Assembly (NCBI GenBank): GCA_016217965.1
Contig: JACRFI010000010.1
Span: 1 to 34,611, forward strand
Origin: Candidatus Kaiserbacteria bacterium
Lineage (GTDB): Bacteria; Patescibacteriota; Minisyncoccia; Phycocordibacterales; UBA2100
Length of the DNA stretch: 34,611 nt
Direction: 5' to 3'
The translations under genes and the position numbers were made by a program. This document shows positions 13,815 through 34,611 of the stretch, piece after piece. Under the pieces are notes generated by a model. The model did no database searches, was not told the DNA's origin, and worked only from the letters and a program-made list of their open reading frames with translations. Numbering within the stretch: position 1 is the stretch's first letter; every line of letters begins with the position of its first letter.

Positions 13815-14379
13815 GAATTACAAGAAACCAATGCCGCCCAATGCCAAGACGGTGTTCAAAGGTGTGATATTCGAAGTGTGGCAATGGCAGCAAAAATTAT
13901 ATGACGGAACTTTCAAGACGTTCGAGAGGCTGAAGCGCCCAGACACGGTCGAAATGCTCGCAGTCGTAGGAGATAAGATACTTGTGCAAGATGAAGAGCA
14001 GCCAGATACTGACGAATTTATTTCAGTACCCGCTGGCCGTGTGGATCCAGGTGAATTGCCTCAACCGGCTGCACAGCGCGAATTACTCGAAGAGACCGGT
14101 TACGCCTCAACAGATTGGGCGCTCATAAGCGAAGAGACTCCGTCGGGGAAGATCGAATGGACAATACATGTTTTCGCTGCGAGAAATTGTGCGAAGAAAC
14201 AGGAGCCAGACCCAGGTGCTGGCGAAAAAGTGAAGTCCCGTTTGGTCTCGTTCGAAGAATTGCTTACGCTTTCAGACCATCCAAGGTTTCGCTCAACGGC
14301 GACACGCTTCCTTTTGTGGCGAGCGCGACTTGACCCAGAAAAGAAAGAAGAACTCCGTGCGCTATTATTCAAAGAATGA
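13807..14379 (+). CDS. NUDIX hydrolase (ADP-ribose pyrophosphatase-like)
   Basis: Nudix box GELPQPAAQRELLEETGY; overlaps purF. Confidence 0.9.
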   Translation: MSKNYKKPMPPNAKTVFKGVIFEVWQWQQKLYDGTFKTFERLKRPDTVEMLAVVGDKILVQDEEQPDTDEFISVPAGRVDPGELPQPAAQRELLEETGYASTDWALISEETPSGKIEWTIHVFAARNCAKKQEPDPGAGEKVKSRLVSFEELLTLSDHPRFRSTATRFLLWRARLDPEKKEELRALLFKE

Positions 14380-15413
14380 AGCCGCGAGAGGAACGCATCG
14401 TTGAACGTTGCATACGAGCAGTAGAAGAGAGGGTCTGTCCGGGCGGGATAGTTGGGACTGTGCGCGCAAGTGGTGAGAAAAAAACGTATCCCTTCGGGCA
14501 CCTGACCGATATTGATTCCGCGTTCGTTATGGACGACACGATGTACGACGTAGCGTCCATCACAAAATCAATCCCTACAGCATCTCTGACGCTAGCCCTC
14601 ATAGATAAAGGCGCGCTTTCGCTTGATGACTTGGTTGCGAAGCATTTGCATGAATTTCGCAATAATTACAGCGATAGGGTCACCATTTGGCATCTTCTTA
14701 CCTACACCATAGATAGCGCGCCGCTATCGACTCTCGCAGACAAAACGTCTGATGAAATATTGGCGTTCGTCATGGCTCGGGATATGGAGCATGAACCCGG
14801 AACCGCTTTTCGATATTCGAATACACCCGCCCTTCTCCTCGGACTTATCATCGAGCGCGTACTCGGTGTCGGGATCGCGCAAGCCGCGCAAGATGTTTTC
14901 TTCAGGCCGCTTGGTATGAAAAGCACAGGATTCATGCCGCAAAAGAATCTGCAATCGCGCATTGCCCCGTCCGAAGGAGGGCTGAGAGGCGTCGTCCATG
15001 ATGAAAGTGCGAGAGTTTTTGCGAGCGAGGGGCGCGCAGTAGGGCATGCGGGACTTTTCTCGACCGCCCCGGACATGATGAATTTTCTTGAGATGTTGCT
15101 TCGAGGAGGGGAGATGCGAGGGCGTCGCTATCTTTCTCAGAAGATTATCCGGGATATGGCGACGAATCAGATTTCGGAGCTCGGAGATAGCACTGGTCTC
15201 GGGTGGGAGCTGAATCAGGCGCGATTTATGGGAAAGCATCCCAGCGAACGTACGTTCGGAAAGACGGGATTCGCTGGCACGAGTATAGTGTGTGATATCG
15301 AGCGAGGCAGCGCGTTTGTCATCCTCACAAATCGAACGTATCCGAAACGGCCACCGGACGATACCGCTATTAACGCTTTCCGAAATGACATTGCAGACAT
15401 CCTGCTGGCCTGA
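14376..15413 (+). CDS. Beta-lactamase-class-C/PBP-like serine hydrolase
   Basis: SITKS (SxxK), YSN, GKTGFAG; no signal peptide; ATGA overlap with the NUDIX gene. Confidence 0.9.
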   Translation: MKPREERIVERCIRAVEERVCPGGIVGTVRASGEKKTYPFGHLTDIDSAFVMDDTMYDVASITKSIPTASLTLALIDKGALSLDDLVAKHLHEFRNNYSDRVTIWHLLTYTIDSAPLSTLADKTSDEILAFVMARDMEHEPGTAFRYSNTPALLLGLIIERVLGVGIAQAAQDVFFRPLGMKSTGFMPQKNLQSRIAPSEGGLRGVVHDESARVFASEGRAVGHAGLFSTAPDMMNFLEMLLRGGEMRGRRYLSQKIIRDMATNQISELGDSTGLGWELNQARFMGKHPSERTFGKTGFAGTSIVCDIERGSAFVILTNRTYPKRPPDDTAINAFRNDIADILLA

Positions 15414-15561: not shown

Positions 15562-17388
15562 ATGTGCGGGATATTTGCATACACGGGCTCGAACGGGAAG
15601 AATGCAGCAAAAGTGCTCTTAGACGGGCTCGTGTCGCTTGAATACCGGGGCTATGATTCTGCAGGTATTTTTATTCCAGAGGCGGGAGTGATAAAAACGC
15701 CTGGTGCAGTCGGTGCTTTGAGAAAGAAAGTCCCAAAGAATTTTAAAGGGAAAAGCGGCATCGCACATTTACGCTGGGCAACGCACGGAGAGCCGACTGA
15801 GAAAAATGCACACCCGCATTGGAGTGGCGACAAGGAGATATGGGTGGTGCACAACGGCATCATAGAGAATTGGCAGGAACTTCGGGCGAAGCTAATTTCA
15901 AAAGGGCACACATTTGTCTCCGATTCTGATTCAGAAATTATTCCTCATCTTGTCGAAGAGCATTTAAAGAAACATAAAAATTTTGAGAAGGCTGCACTTG
16001 CTGCTCTTAACGAGATCAGAGGGACATTTGGCATTGCAATGCAGTACAAGGGGGAACCCGACAAGCTCATTGCCGCGCGAATGGGCTCGCCAATTGTTAT
16101 CGGGGTCGGCAAAAACGAGCGTTTTATCGCCTCCGACGCTTCCCCAATATTGCCGCACACAAAAAAAGTTGTTTTTCTCGAAGATGGCGAGGTGGCTATA
16201 CTTACTCCCGACAAACATACAGTCCTTAAACTGAATGCAACAAAGATCCAGCGTGAGCCGGAGGAAATAGAATGGAATGCAGAACAGGCGCAAAAGGGAG
16301 GCCACGAACACTTCATGCTCAAGGAAATATTAGAAGCGCCACTGGTCGTTGAAGACACGATGCGGGGGCGCTTGATACTGAATAAAGGAACGTCAAAGCT
16401 TGGAGGGCTTGATAAAGTGGAAAAAAAACTTAAAGAGATCGATCGCATCATTATTGTTGCGTGCGGAACCGCATACCTCGCTGGTTTAGTAGGAGAGTAC
16501 ATGATTGAAGAATTTGCTGGCATACCGGTAGAAGTCGAACTTGCAAGCGAGTTTCGTTACCGAAAGCCGGTTGTTAACAAGCGAACCGCTGTATTGGCGA
16601 TATCGCAATCAGGAGAGACGCTGGATACGCTTGAGGCAATACGTGAGGCGAAGCGCCAGAATGCACTTACACTCGGCATTGTGAATACCGTTGGGTCTAC
16701 CATTACTCGAGAAGACGATTCAGGCGTTTACAATCACGCCGGCCCGGAGATCAGCGTTGCCTCAACAAAAGCATTTATCTCGCAACTCGTTGTTTTGGCG
16801 CTCATGACGTTGTTTTTGGGCCGGCAACGCAAGATGACAGCCGCGCAGGGTAAGGAAATAGCTCGCGAGTTGAAAAAACTTCCCGGGAAACTGAAGGCTA
16901 TATTGGAAAATGAGAAGGCGATAGAGACACTTGCTAAAAAATACTCACATCATCGAGATTTTCTGTTCCTTGGGCGCAAGTACAACTATCCAGTTGCACT
17001 CGAGGGAGCGTTAAAGTTGAAAGAGATATCGTACATTCATGCAGAAGGGTATGGGGCGGGGGAAATGAAGCATGGGCCGCTCGCGATGATAGATGAGAAT
17101 TTTCCAACGTTTGCGGTCGCGCCCCATGATTCCGTGTACGAAAAAGTCTTGAGCGCAATTCAGCAAGTGAGGGCTCGAAAGGGACCTGTCATAGCTCTCA
17201 CGACAGAAGGGGACAGTGAGGTACAAAAGATAGCGGATGACGTTATCTACGTGCCGCAAACCATAGAGATGCTTTCTCCTATTCTGAATGTCGTGCCGCT
17301 CCAGCTGTTCGCGTACTACTTTGCGAAAGAAAAAGGCCTTAATGTAGATCGACCACGAAATCTAGCAAAATCCGTTACGGTCGAATAG
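15562..17388 (+). CDS. glmS: Glutamine-fructose-6-phosphate aminotransferase
   Basis: MCGIFAYTGS N-terminal Cys, SLEYRGYDSAGI, SQSGETLDTLEAIREAK SIS domain, C-terminal LAKSVTVE. Confidence 0.98.
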   Translation: MCGIFAYTGSNGKNAAKVLLDGLVSLEYRGYDSAGIFIPEAGVIKTPGAVGALRKKVPKNFKGKSGIAHLRWATHGEPTEKNAHPHWSGDKEIWVVHNGIIENWQELRAKLISKGHTFVSDSDSEIIPHLVEEHLKKHKNFEKAALAALNEIRGTFGIAMQYKGEPDKLIAARMGSPIVIGVGKNERFIASDASPILPHTKKVVFLEDGEVAILTPDKHTVLKLNATKIQREPEEIEWNAEQAQKGGHEHFMLKEILEAPLVVEDTMRGRLILNKGTSKLGGLDKVEKKLKEIDRIIIVACGTAYLAGLVGEYMIEEFAGIPVEVELASEFRYRKPVVNKRTAVLAISQSGETLDTLEAIREAKRQNALTLGIVNTVGSTITREDDSGVYNHAGPEISVASTKAFISQLVVLALMTLFLGRQRKMTAAQGKEIARELKKLPGKLKAILENEKAIETLAKKYSHHRDFLFLGRKYNYPVALEGALKLKEISYIHAEGYGAGEMKHGPLAMIDENFPTFAVAPHDSVYEKVLSAIQQVRARKGPVIALTTEGDSEVQKIADDVIYVPQTIEMLSPILNVVPLQLFAYYFAKEKGLNVDRPRNLAKSVTVE

Positions 17389-17511
17389 CAAAACTCTTTC
17401 TCGGCATAAGCTTTTTGCCGTCGCTATCTGGGCCTGCTGGCCCAGCGCTCGGTCTCGGCGCCGTCGCGCCTGCGAAGACGGCAAAAAACTTACGCCTTCA
17501 ACGAGTTTTGC
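17388..17511. repeat. Intergenic structured element (copy B) between convergent glmS and HAD genes
   Basis: Outer arms GCAAAACTC 17388-17396/GAGTTTTGC 17503-17511; core GCCGTC 17417-17422/GACGGC 17477-17482; hairpins CTGGGCC-TGCT-GGCCCAG and GGCGC-CGTC-GCGCC. Confidence 0.88.
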
Positions 17512-18154
17512 TTCGGATGTTAACTATGTTCGCAACTTCTTCCATCGTATCGGCATATGCATGAGCGCCTTTTTGTTCATATCCAGGCATGAGATGTCCT
17601 CGGAAAGCGATGACGAAACATCCCGCGGCTTTTCCTGCCTCTATTCCGAAATTAGAATCTTCCAACACAAACGAGAAGCTCGAGTCCGCATCGAGTGCGC
17701 GCAAACCGGCGAGGTAGCCATCAGGCGCGGGTTTTGGTTTTAGTTCTTGATGTTGGTGGAGGGAAATTACGATCTCCAATCTATTTTTTGAGGGAAGATG
17801 TTGCAGGACTTTTTCTATCGAATCTTGTTTGGATTGCGAAACAAGACCTAGCCTGAATTCTTTTGCATGCAGCTCCTCGATCAGTGAATCAGCGCCAGGG
17901 GTTATTTGTGCGCGTTCGTACACTTTTGCTGCCATGGCCTCATGTTCAGCGATCACATCTTCGCGGTTAAATGTCGCTCCGAGCGAGGTCGCTAGTTCAA
18001 TAACTCCCGTGAGACCGTATCCAATTAAATTCGGTATTTTTGCCGCGGCTTCCGCTCCGAACATTTTAGGCAGATATTCGCGCTCGAGTTCTTCCCAGAC
18101 AGGTTCACTGTTCACTATCACGCCATCCATATCGAAAATGAATGCTTTGTTCAT
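17498..18154 (-). CDS. HAD-superfamily phosphatase/phosphoglucomutase-like
   Basis: AFIFDMDGVIVNSEPVWEELE, GLVSQSKQDS, FVLEDSNFGIEAGKAAGC. Confidence 0.92.
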   Translation of the reverse strand: MNKAFIFDMDGVIVNSEPVWEELEREYLPKMFGAEAAAKIPNLIGYGLTGVIELATSLGATFNREDVIAEHEAMAAKVYERAQITPGADSLIEELHAKEFRLGLVSQSKQDSIEKVLQHLPSKNRLEIVISLHQHQELKPKPAPDGYLAGLRALDADSSFSFVLEDSNFGIEAGKAAGCFVIAFRGHLMPGYEQKGAHAYADTMEEVANIVNIRSKTR

Positions 18155-19348: not shown

Positions 19349-20401
19349 TTAGATTTTCACAATCTTCTCCCAAGGTCTCCCAGATACTCCAAAGTGGCCG
19401 TACGCAGCAGTTTCTTGGAATATCGGTTTTCGAAGTCCGAGTCGTTCGATGATGGCGCGTGGCCTGAAGTCGAAGTGTTTATTTACGACAGATGTCAGGT
19501 TTTTTCCGCTGTCACTGAACGCTTCGACCATGACTGGCTCGACTCGTCCGATAGCGTATGCCACTGTAACAAGTGCTTTCTTCGCATAACCGTTAGCAAC
19601 CAAGTTTTTTGCGACGAAGCGGCACATGTACGCGGCGGAGCGGTCTACTTTCGTCGCATCCTTTCCAGAGAACGCGCCGCCTCCATGCGGCGCAAGGCCT
19701 CCATACGTGTCTACCTGGATCTTGCGGCCAGTGAGGCCAGCGTCGGCAAAGAATCCGCCTTGGATAAATTGCCCGGTCGGATTTACCAATACCTCAATGG
19801 CGTCGAGGTTGCCGAGGATGGGCTTGAAGAGATGCTTGATAAGGTCCGCACGAATATCTTCTTGGGATATCTTTTCATCGTGCTGCGTCGATGTGAGCGC
19901 TGTGAGCACTTTTCCTTTTGCGATAGTAACCTGTGTCTTGCCGTCGGGTTTTATCCATTTTAGTTTTTTGCTGCGGCGAAGCTCTTCAAGTTTTCTGGCC
20001 ATTTTGTGCACCAGCACAACACCGAGAGGCAGCATCTCTTTCGTTTCGTCGGTTGCGTAGCCGTACATGATGCCTTGGTCGCCTGCGCCCCCCGTATCTA
20101 CTCCCATCGCGATGTCTCCGGACTGTTGCGCTACTTTTACCAATACATCTAATTTCTCCGTATAGCCGATATCTTTGTAGACTTTGCGGGCGATCTTCTC
20201 AAAATTCAATTTCGCGTTGGTTTTTATTTCACCACCTATCATCAGTGTGCCATGGCTGCCGAACGTCTCGATCGCAACGCGGCTCATAGGATCTTCTTTC
20301 AAGGCAGCATCCAAAATCGCGTCCGAGATCTGATCGCAGACTTTATCCGGGTGGCCGGACGTAACGCTCTCAACTGTGTATCTCTCTAAAAGATGGAACA
20401 T
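19349..20401 (-). CDS. metK: S-adenosylmethionine synthetase
   Basis: TVESVTSGHPDKVCDQISDAILDA, GAGDQGIMYGYATDET, GGGAFSGKDATKVDRSAAY. Confidence 0.98.
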   Translation of the reverse strand: MFHLLERYTVESVTSGHPDKVCDQISDAILDAALKEDPMSRVAIETFGSHGTLMIGGEIKTNAKLNFEKIARKVYKDIGYTEKLDVLVKVAQQSGDIAMGVDTGGAGDQGIMYGYATDETKEMLPLGVVLVHKMARKLEELRRSKKLKWIKPDGKTQVTIAKGKVLTALTSTQHDEKISQEDIRADLIKHLFKPILGNLDAIEVLVNPTGQFIQGGFFADAGLTGRKIQVDTYGGLAPHGGGAFSGKDATKVDRSAAYMCRFVAKNLVANGYAKKALVTVAYAIGRVEPVMVEAFSDSGKNLTSVVNKHFDFRPRAIIERLGLRKPIFQETAAYGHFGVSGRPWEKIVKI

Positions 20402-20509: not shown

Positions 20510-20520
20510 ATTCTTTGTGA

Positions 20521-20620
20521 GAGTATCGCCCCGTTAGGGTCGGAGGGAGCACATTGCTTCATGTGAAGCTGTTGCTGGCGGGTCGTCGAGCCGAATCTCT
20601 CACCGCGCTCTTGATACGTA
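20521..20620 (-). ncRNA. SAM-I (S-box) riboswitch aptamer upstream of metK
   Basis: Minus strand GTATCAAGAGCGCGGTGAGAGATTCGGCTCGACGACCCGCCAGCAACAGCTTCACATGAAGCAATGTGCTCCCTCCGACCCTAACGGGGCGATAC matches SAM-I layout: UAUCAAGAG, GAGRGA-cUGGCYCGAYGA-CCCG-GCAAC, AAnGUGCU..UCC, P4 CCC-UAAC-GGGG, P1 GTATC/GATAC. Confidence 0.88.
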
Positions 20621-31995: not shown

Positions 31996-33918
31996 TTAGA
32001 ACTGAAAGAACTTTAGATCGGGATAAGTAGAAAATATATTCCAGACGCGTTCAGTGTCCGTATACCATTCATGCGCACTGAGAAATCGTTCGGAAGGCGA
32101 TGTGAGCGCGCCGAATGAAAGTCCCTCCAGGTCTTTCGGCACAACGTAGATGAATTCAGGGGCATACAAAAAGACGGCTGGCTGGTCCTCTCCGATGATA
32201 TCGGAGAATTCGCGATACAATTTTTCTCGCTCTTCTTTGTTCACTTCTGTGCGGGCAGACGCTAGAAGCTTGTCCGCCTTCGTACTTGCATAGAGTGCGA
32301 GGTTAAGGCCTGGGTCGTTGCGTTGGCTAGAGTGCCAGAAAGCGAATAGGTCTAGCGTGCGTCCTACGACTTCTCCGAAGAGAATTGCATCATACGCGCG
32401 CGGACGAAGAACCGTTGTGTTGAATTCTGCAAGCGGATACACCTGAACGTCAACATCCACACCTGCTTCTTTCCATGATGCTGCAACGGATTCTGCCGTT
32501 CCCGACAGCTCGGGCGTATCAGCAGTCGCAAGTGCGAAGGAAAGCGTTTGTTTATTTTTTGTGCCCTTTGTCCAAACGCTGTTTTCAGTGCTTGCTTCCG
32601 GTGAGGTTGTCGAGACTGTGGCCCCCTCATATTTCCACCCCCCTTTTGTGAGAATGGAACGCGCCGCATCTGCCTCGGTTTCAGTGCTCGTTGCCGTTTC
32701 CTCTCGAACTTCCGAAAAGAGTCCTGGCGGGATTGGTCCGTCGGCCTCTTTGCCGAACCCGCCGAGGCTTTTGTCAATTAACTCTTCTCTATTTATTGCG
32801 GCTGAAAGTGCGGAGCGGACGGAAAGGTCAGCCAAAATAGGCGCATGGCTTTGATTGAAAAAGATGCCGAAGATGCGAGTCGAGGCAATGCGCACGAGCC
32901 TCGAATCTGGGCGGCTTTCAATAAGGGTGCTTGGGGGTGTGATTCCTGCAAAGCTGTCTATCTCGCTGTACGCGAATGCGTCCTTGAGTGCCTGTTGGTT
33001 CGGATAAAAATGAAATTCAATCTTGTCGAGGTTCGCACGCCCCAGAGTGAAATCATCGAAAGCGGAAAGTTCGTACAAAATTGGGGAGCCTGCTTTATCT
33101 GTTGTTACATCTGAGATTTTAAATGGGCCGCTTCCTATCGGGTTTGTGTTCAGGGCGTGGAAGGGAAATTCTTCAGGAGAGATATTGTTCCAAAGTGCCT
33201 TTGGCAAAATGCCGAGCTGCGTATTCTCAAGGAACGGTGCGTATGCGTGGGGGAGCGTAAAAATGACGGTGCGTTCATCGGGGCTGGAAACTGAGACGCC
33301 CTCCCAATCTGCACGCCGCGGGCTTTTTATCATCTCGTTCTGTGCGAGTGATACGGTGAACAAGACATCCTCTGCTTTTATAGGAGTGCCATCATGGAAG
33401 GTGGCATTTTCCCGGATGGTGAACGTGTATGCCGTGCCATCTTCAGATACTTGGTAGCCCTCCGCAACGTCGGGGATAAGTGTGCCGTTCTTTCCTGCGC
33501 GCATGAGCCCTGAGTAGATGAGCGCGGCAAGGTCTTGGTCTGTCTGCGATATCGCAAGGAGTGGATTGATGAATCGCGGAGTTCCAAGCGTACCTTCGGA
33601 GAGCGCACCGCCCCTTGAAGGCACCGTGACGCTGACCTGTTCGTTCACTTTGATGAGAAGCATAAGGGCGCTTCCGGCGAGAAGGATGGATAGTACATAG
33701 AGAAGCATCCTCTCTCCTGGGGAGAGCGCATGAAGGACGCGGTGCAATGCGCTGAAACGCCCGACATGCCTCTCTTCCATGAGCATGTCTGCAACGTTTT
33801 TTTTCCGTAGAGCATCCTGCATTTCCGGGATGTCCGGTTTTTTTTGTAGGTCAAGGAGTTCTTCCACCCCGTTAGAAACAGGACGCGGACGCTGGTTTGT
33901 TGAGTCTGTAAAATTCAT
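31996..33918 (-). CDS. Family 5 (peptide/nickel-type) extracellular solute-binding protein, membrane-anchored
   Basis: Cytoplasmic-like N-terminus, TM (MLLYVLSILLAGSALMLLI), then LGTPRFINPLLAISQTDQDLAALIYSGLMR...TIRENATFHDGTPIKAEDVLFTVSLA. ATG at 33918 preferred to TTG at 33948. Confidence 0.9.
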   Translation of the reverse strand: MNFTDSTNQRPRPVSNGVEELLDLQKKPDIPEMQDALRKKNVADMLMEERHVGRFSALHRVLHALSPGERMLLYVLSILLAGSALMLLIKVNEQVSVTVPSRGGALSEGTLGTPRFINPLLAISQTDQDLAALIYSGLMRAGKNGTLIPDVAEGYQVSEDGTAYTFTIRENATFHDGTPIKAEDVLFTVSLAQNEMIKSPRRADWEGVSVSSPDERTVIFTLPHAYAPFLENTQLGILPKALWNNISPEEFPFHALNTNPIGSGPFKISDVTTDKAGSPILYELSAFDDFTLGRANLDKIEFHFYPNQQALKDAFAYSEIDSFAGITPPSTLIESRPDSRLVRIASTRIFGIFFNQSHAPILADLSVRSALSAAINREELIDKSLGGFGKEADGPIPPGLFSEVREETATSTETEADAARSILTKGGWKYEGATVSTTSPEASTENSVWTKGTKNKQTLSFALATADTPELSGTAESVAASWKEAGVDVDVQVYPLAEFNTTVLRPRAYDAILFGEVVGRTLDLFAFWHSSQRNDPGLNLALYASTKADKLLASARTEVNKEEREKLYREFSDIIGEDQPAVFLYAPEFIYVVPKDLEGLSFGALTSPSERFLSAHEWYTDTERVWNIFSTYPDLKFFQF

Positions 33919-33987
33919 GTCAAGAAACGAGAGTGTGATTGTTACCAAGGCGCTAATTTCAGCGAGTGTCCGCTGTTTCTAACGGGG
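33867..33987. repeat. 15-bp perfect inverted repeat CCCCGTTAGAAACAG/CTGTTTCTAACGGGG
   Basis: Arms 33867-33881 and 33973-33987, flanking the start codon of the solute-binding protein. Confidence 0.85.
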
Positions 33988-34059: not shown

Positions 34060-34293
34060 CTAACTAATAATTAAATTCACGAATGCCGACAAAGCAAAGA
34101 GGATACCAAGAGTAATAGTAGCCTGGAACAAGGTTTTTTCCAATCCACGGCGGGTGTGGAAACCGCTGGTGAAGTTATCGGCGCCGAAAGCACCCCCGAG
34201 GGATGCGCCCGTGCGCTGCAGCAAAATTGCCCCTATGAGGAGTACAGAGAGGCCTATTTGCACGTACGGCAATGCCGTCTGGAGAAGAACCAT
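34060..34293 (-). CDS. secG: Preprotein translocase subunit SecG
   Basis: PYVQIGLSVLLIGAILLQRTGASLGGAFGADN...RRGLEKTLFQATITLGILFALSAFVNLI; start MVLLQ at 34293 preferred to 34491. Confidence 0.88.
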   Translation of the reverse strand: MVLLQTALPYVQIGLSVLLIGAILLQRTGASLGGAFGADNFTSGFHTRRGLEKTLFQATITLGILFALSAFVNLIIS

Positions 34294-34378
34294 GCGGTGG
34301 CATACTACCATATGGGGCATTCCAAAGTCAAAGGTCAGAAGGCAAAAGTTCCTAAGCGAGCGCAGGTATTGCTCCTGA

Positions 34379-34445
34379 GCCGTCTTCGCAGGCGCGACTG
34401 GCGCCGAGACCGAGCGCTGGTGCAGCAGCACCAGATAGCGACGGC
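34379..34445 (-). repeat. Second copy (copy D) of the structured core found in the 17388-17511 element
   Basis: Minus strand GCCGTCGCTATCTGGTGCTGCTGCACCAGCGCTCGGTCTCGGCGCCAGTCGCGCCTGCGAAGACGGC, near-identical to 17417-17482. Confidence 0.9.
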
Positions 34446-34611
34446 GAAGGAGTAGATACCAAGCGAGCAGGTTGCATAAGTTCAGATACATTTGGCACTC
34501 GGGTAACTGCTAGGATGTGCGGCAGATATACATGCGAGACATGGTCCCTGGAGCGCGAAAGTTCCAGCGGGACACGGTACGCTGGCTCCATATGGCTACC
34601 GAGCGGGCGAA

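Follow-up and report, generated by a model that had tools for sequence, protein, structure and literature searches.

The window, the whole 34,611-nucleotide stretch of Candidatus Kaiserbacteria DNA analysed here (contig 5 of a 0.98 Mb genome), carries two copies of a real and widespread palindromic element, whose sequence and architecture are new and whose general kind is known. The element is probably a mobile, non-autonomous palindrome, similar in kind to Rickettsia palindromic elements (RPEs) and REP repeats, that has spread through Paceibacteria. A sequence-only reading of this DNA had proposed a new structured RNA or DNA with a three-way-junction core, and its structural description proved exact: both cores, their identical linkers, the exchange of two pairs in hairpin 1 (CTGGGCC/GGCCCAG in one copy, CTGGTGC/GCACCAG in the other) and the loop difference (CGTC versus CAGTC) are as described, and the outer boundary that it drew delimits a real 124 bp palindrome (Table 1). 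The longer palindrome around the core, the copy number and the strand that folds had escaped it.

Table 1. Element copies and other features of the window.
Feature	Position	Strand	Remark
Beta-lactamase-fold serine hydrolase family protein (PF00144)	14376-15413	+	
glmS-like glucosamine-6-phosphate synthase	15562..17388	+	SIS and glutamine amidotransferase domains; left of copy 1
Element copy 1, whole palindrome	17388..17511	-	GCAAAACTC...GAGTTTTGC, 124 bp
Copy 1, left outer arm	17388..17416	+	paired with right arm
Copy 1, three-way-junction core	17417..17482	+	plus-strand reading; conserved
Copy 1, core closing stem	17417-17422 / 17477-17482	+	
Copy 1, core linkers	17423-17427; 17446-17456; 17471-17476	+	GCTAT; CGCTCGGTCTC; TGCGAA
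Copy 1, hairpin 1	17428..17445	+	CTGGGCC-TGCT-GGCCCAG
Copy 1, hairpin 2	17457..17470	+	GGCGC-CGTC-GCGCC
Copy 1, right outer arm	17483..17511	+	
HAD-family phosphatase	17498..18154	-	right of copy 1; ORF end at 17498
S-adenosylmethionine synthetase	19349-20401	-	downstream of the SAM riboswitch
SAM riboswitch (RF00162)	20520-20620	-	score only just at the gathering score
Family-5 solute-binding protein	31996-33948	-	
SecG	34060..34293	-	downstream of copy 2
Element copy 2, whole palindrome	34354..34468	-	GCTCGCTTGGTAT...ATACCTGCGCTCGC; core 34445-34379
ORF start, first residues MCGRYT	34515-34611	+	divergent from secG; interrupted by the contig end

Copy 1 occupies the entire gap between the convergent glmS and phosphatase genes. 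The first base of its left arm is the final base of the glmS stop codon TAG, and its right arm encodes, on the minus strand, the stop codon and final residues of the phosphatase. Beyond copy 2, the ORF interrupted by the contig end opens with residues that we take to be a hallmark of SRAP/HMCES-type proteins.

In the element, a long outer stem of copy-specific sequence, reaching a median of 18 bp outward from the core, closes on a conserved core made up of two hairpins, whose loops are fixed (TGCT and CGTC on the plus strand), and of linkers that are fixed as well. The stem of hairpin 1 varies with full compensation around its conserved TGCT loop, with 1281 Watson-Crick cells against 21 others, and the CGTC loop of hairpin 2 is likewise conserved. 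Among 20 copies of the window's own genome, two-sided changes were found at 23 of the 32 model pairs, a number equalled in none of 500 shuffles, and compensation amounted to 98 cells versus 27 in shuffles. Across 103 copies of the wider group, 31 of the 32 pairs changed on both sides, with 973 cells versus 283 in shuffles, in an alignment that was fitted to the covariance model and is biased towards it. Both compensation counts collapse in slid controls. These changes show that a T-shaped core with a long variable stem is maintained by compensatory change, extending the covariation first seen between the two copies of the window.

Some copies depart from this plan. Hairpin 2 holds nested further palindromes in some of them, either as inserted short palindromes (CCTGCCTGCCGGCAGGCAGG, CCCGCCTGCG...CGGGCAGG) or as an alternative hairpin of the GTCGTCTG..CAGACGAC type (inserts or alternatives at loci L113, L180, L205, L207, L253; L020, L206, L220). 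A divergent subfamily, present in further families of the phylum too, has an A/T-rich hairpin 1 (ATTTTTC-TGCT-GAAAAAT) and retains both loops and the linkers (L118, L122, L125, L126, L128, L134, L357-L365).

A 23-base pattern with at most three mismatches detected 20 copies of about 115-125 bp in the own genome, and its reversed control detected none. The covariance model, built from 20 copies, returned 21 strong ones; its weaker rows are the same palindromes on the other strand, or marginal. Most genomes of the genus carry the element, with 0-16 copies across 35 relatives and 0-21 when the own genome is included. The core DNA pattern occurs in at least 111 stretches of named genomes. Among the matches listed, nearly all belong to Kaiserbacteria, Nomurabacteria, Zambryskibacteria, Liptonbacteria and other Parcubacteria, and the few others (e.g., Treponema, Aphanocapsa) look like chance. 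The element pattern was found in 30 of 40 genomes of the Nomurabacteria group and in 13 of 287 genomes of a phylum sample that is thin and was strictly filtered, eight of these 13 belonging to the window's order. Carriage by phages was rejected, the core pattern having no match in viral contigs. Nor did any Rfam covariance model match the element in the window or at 12 element loci, in agreement with the earlier reading, which had recognised no described RNA class in it; only the SAM riboswitch, away from the element, passed the gathering score in the window, and tRNAs alone reached the cut-off at the 12 loci. No description of palindromic or REP elements in CPR/Parcubacteria was found in the open-access literature.

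Empty orthologous sites and copies inside genes characterise the element as an insertion. Two genomes of the same genus (G018 and G007) keep the convergent glmS-HAD pair without the element. The copies of the own genome look exclusively intergenic, whereas in-frame copies are the rule in Nomurabacteria, where the element lies inside PcrA, RecG, TsaD, Tgt, Def, UvrB, IleRS, and others. In the PcrA/UvrD helicase, an empty site A measures 35 aa and a filled one 61 aa, while site B has 33 aa without an insert and mostly 65 aa with one; depending on the species, site B contains the element in sense, the element in antisense, another repeat family, or nothing. Both sites coincide with short, variable links in the PcrA crystal sequence and are presumably surface loops. 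In KsgA, Def, Tgt, MnmA, and DnaE a Pfam domain extends across the insert, and in TsaD, RecG, UvrB, Fmt, and IleRS the ORF continues through it. All six frames through the core are open in most copies (120-187 of 189). Nevertheless, two of them, one per orientation, account for 48 of the 54 long ORFs that cross the core (a lone "anti 1" row was counted with "anti 2", the peptide being identical). These two frames encode SLSPRARGALPLGSSACET and (G)VSQADGPRGSAPRARGDSD, both polar and of low complexity. Such a frame bias would follow from inserts that are translated and survive in mild frames only, and it suggests that the in-gene inserts are neither spliced out nor gene-breaking. The element also accounts for unusual inserts, about 26-32 residues long, that core enzymes of these bacteria contain and that matter for annotation and structure prediction.

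Judged from sequence comparison, the element is thus a dispersed insertion and not a riboswitch-type RNA. No exact target-site duplication was resolved among the compared genomes, which are too diverged, and no recent transposition between strains was seen. MITEs of DNA transposons share terminal inverted repeats with a transposon and have a target-site duplication; the ends of the element are palindromic, and no close pair of empty and filled sites fixes its exact boundary.

Other repeats share the PcrA sites. A second repeat family, with the peptide RTLGRSDGDGQRKFSAENFRG and the DNA CGACGGACAGAGAAAATTTTCAGCAGAAAATTTTCGTGGTGA, was found at both sites (L315, L317, L321, L322, L323, L329, L332, L334) and in 14 of 60 genomes of the Nomurabacteria group. 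With its CAGCAG hairpin loop and its GACG motif it is similar to the minus strand of the element, and it may be a sister family of the element. At site B, L313, L319, and L320 contain unrelated inserts, e.g., SPFAGGEDSPLPAKGGVGGG from a palindromic GGGGGAGGG-type repeat, and AFENGLAGGG.... Judging by this variety of inserts, the site B loop is a hotspot for short repeats.

Between genes, 98 of 129 copies are no more than 60 nt away from a stop codon that ends an ORF of 100 aa or longer, in numbers that are rough since the gene calls are simple ORFs. These 98 comprise 54 sense, 26 antisense, and 18 convergent copies.

The mismatches within the arms indicate which strand folds, on the premise that strand-symmetric mutation would yield equal numbers of A.C and G.T mismatches in a palindrome. 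On the plus strand, which the sequence-only reading had described, 118 non-redundant elements contain 72 A.C versus 20 G.T mismatches; 41 elements lean towards A.C and 11 the opposite way (p = 3.6e-5), the kinship of copies being only partly controlled in this count. The A.C:G.T ratio is 25:8, 19:3, and 21:2 for intergenic copies in sense, antisense, and other contexts, respectively, and 13:7 for coding copies in sense as well as in antisense. As a control, the tRNA stems of the same loci gave the mirror ratio, with 23 G.T versus 6 A.C on the RNA strand. Hairpin 1 taken alone is without polarity (10 G.T, 7 A.C). The A.C cells of the plus strand are T.G wobbles on the complement, so that the minus strand behaves as the strand that must fold. 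The fold described earlier holds, and the strand whose folding is conserved seems to be the opposite one, independently of the direction of transcription. The ratio of A.C to G.T mismatches offers a simple test for which strand of a palindrome must fold.

As a new structured RNA class, the element would be transcribed and act as a cis-regulatory or small RNA. The conserved fold and specific linkers of the earlier proposal stand and would suit such a class, as would the wobble polarity, which is as large as that of tRNA though for the minus strand, and the many Kaiserbacteria copies just past stop codons, which follow the orientation of the upstream gene more often than they oppose it (54 against 26). 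However, the polarity does not follow the transcribed strand: it stays the same for either direction of transcription from the neighbouring gene. Copies also sit within unrelated coding genes in both orientations, are absent from orthologous sites, vary from 0 to 21 within one genus, and match nothing in Rfam. A functional RNA class is therefore unlikely. Covariation as it stands was rejected as proof of RNA: wobble pairs are scarce, and whatever the direction of transcription they indicate the opposite strand. A terminator of transcription in both directions, or a stabiliser of mRNA 3' ends, would suit a copy that fills the space between two convergent genes and the prevalence of copies close to stop codons. 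This function is nevertheless highly improbable: the T-runs before and A-runs after the core are reversed for an intrinsic terminator, orthologous gene pairs do without the element, in-gene copies would stop their own gene, and the stop-proximal position may simply follow from where insertions are tolerated.

Other explanations concern how the palindrome is kept or moved. Template switching during replication (quasi-palindrome correction) could keep the palindrome perfect, in which case compensation would need no selection on folding. The same mechanism has been discussed for coding palindromes of Nematomorpha (PMC6649704), and the near absence of wobble or mismatch intermediates in the stems, as counted for hairpin 1, would be in line with it. 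As the whole explanation it is rather improbable, for it leaves the conserved unpaired linkers and loops unexplained, as well as the residual A.C mismatches on one strand of the element in any orientation, but it may still act additionally. Y1 enzymes (IS200/IS605) act on one folded strand, which would match the polarity, and a REP-like element could be mobilised by the Y1/RAYT tyrosine transposases of these genomes: three RAYT-like Y1_Tnp ORFs, each about 236 aa long, are present in the own genome (L021, L022, L023), and Y1_Tnp is common in the genus, with up to 13 per genome. The counts of Y1 genes and elements do not match, however (0 and 6 in G004, 1 and 16 in G022, 12 and 1 in G033), the 33 Y1_Tnp loci examined hold no element, and no GTAG-type guide was recognised beside the hairpins. 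These enzymes were rejected as movers, and the idea is quite unlikely. Spread by reverse transcription of a minus-strand RNA would draw on the RNA-sized polarity of the minus strand and on reverse transcriptases in 15 of 37 relatives searched; it is very unlikely, as the search turned up none in the own genome, the one richest in copies and 94% complete.

The mobile palindrome that we consider probable needs no ORF of its own, has many copies and is absent from orthologous sites. Its minus strand, most likely as a single-stranded DNA intermediate, as the polarity suggests, would fold and be recognised by an enzyme supplied in trans, for which the conserved linkers and loops would serve as marks. 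It would insert widely, and copies would persist only where they are harmless, directly behind stop codons or, in the mildest frames, in tolerant surface loops; the positions of copies behind stops and in loops are observed, and the selection is what we infer from them. Template switching may help to keep the arms perfect. Against this reading, a minus-strand RNA would fit the wobble polarity too. An insertion element comes near to the transposon-like outcome that had been named as contrary to an RNA class, though no transposase was identified: comparison of Y1 transposase counts and flanks tied no transposase or nuclease gene to the element. The polarity gives a concrete substrate for finding the enzyme. 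A further-reaching idea, which we hold only tentatively and with more doubt than confidence, is a new class of mobile elements. Each would travel as a single strand that folds into a three-way junction with a long stem, through a host or element-specific enzyme, and the class would have settled, alongside sister families at shared insertion sites, in the core genes of an entire lineage of bacteria with reduced genomes.

Protein-coding palindromes have been described as peculiar to Rickettsia and later Wolbachia. Unrelated in-gene palindromes in Paceibacteria, which have reduced genomes and depend on hosts, suggest that reduced genomes are repeatedly open to such DNA. Among described repeats, the RPEs appear to be the closest known functional counterparts, and REP and ERIC-type repeats resemble the element less closely. 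RPEs (Ogata et al., 2000, 2002) are palindromes of 105-146 bp with several families per genome, situated between genes and in frame inside conserved protein genes, and without known transposase (PMC2229807, PMC3733652). The element is alike in size (124 bp in copy 1), in being repeated (21 copies), and in its in-frame insertion in unrelated conserved genes of Nomurabacteria that have insert-free orthologs. Compared by description only, it differs from RPEs in its phylum, its sequence, and its T-shaped core with two fixed-loop hairpins and long linkers. RPE arms are reported to lose identity over time (PMC6649704), whereas two-sided changes across a highly diverse set of copies preserve the pairing of the arms of the element, and it is this maintenance that would set it apart.

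REP units measure 20-40 bp with a tag unpaired at one end; CGTC and GTAG REPs lie downstream of coding regions and sometimes in repair genes (uvrB, uvrD), and CGTC REPs, which include RPE-4 and RPE-6, have no linked transposase (PMC3733652). The element also occurs behind genes and in repair genes without linked transposase. Identity with CGTC REPs, which have an 8-9 bp stem starting with A-T pairs, an unpaired CGTC at one end and a CCA tail (PMC3733652), was rejected, as in the element CGTC forms the apical loop of hairpin 2, and the full length is about 100-125 bp. A RAYT-mobilised GTAG REP was rejected as well, as the copies do not flank a tyrosine transposase gene at the 33 Y1_Tnp loci. 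ERIC and NEMIS (Correia) repeats are imperfect palindromes of about 100-155 bp, intergenic and sometimes in frame (PMC2229807). The element shares their size, form, and settings; however, no TA-flanked terminal repeats were seen in it, and its conserved part is the centre, not the ends. In mitochondria of Nematomorpha, coding palindromes are actively maintained within protein genes (PMC6649704), but, unlike the copies of the element, these lack a conserved core in common and do not form a family of dispersed sequences.
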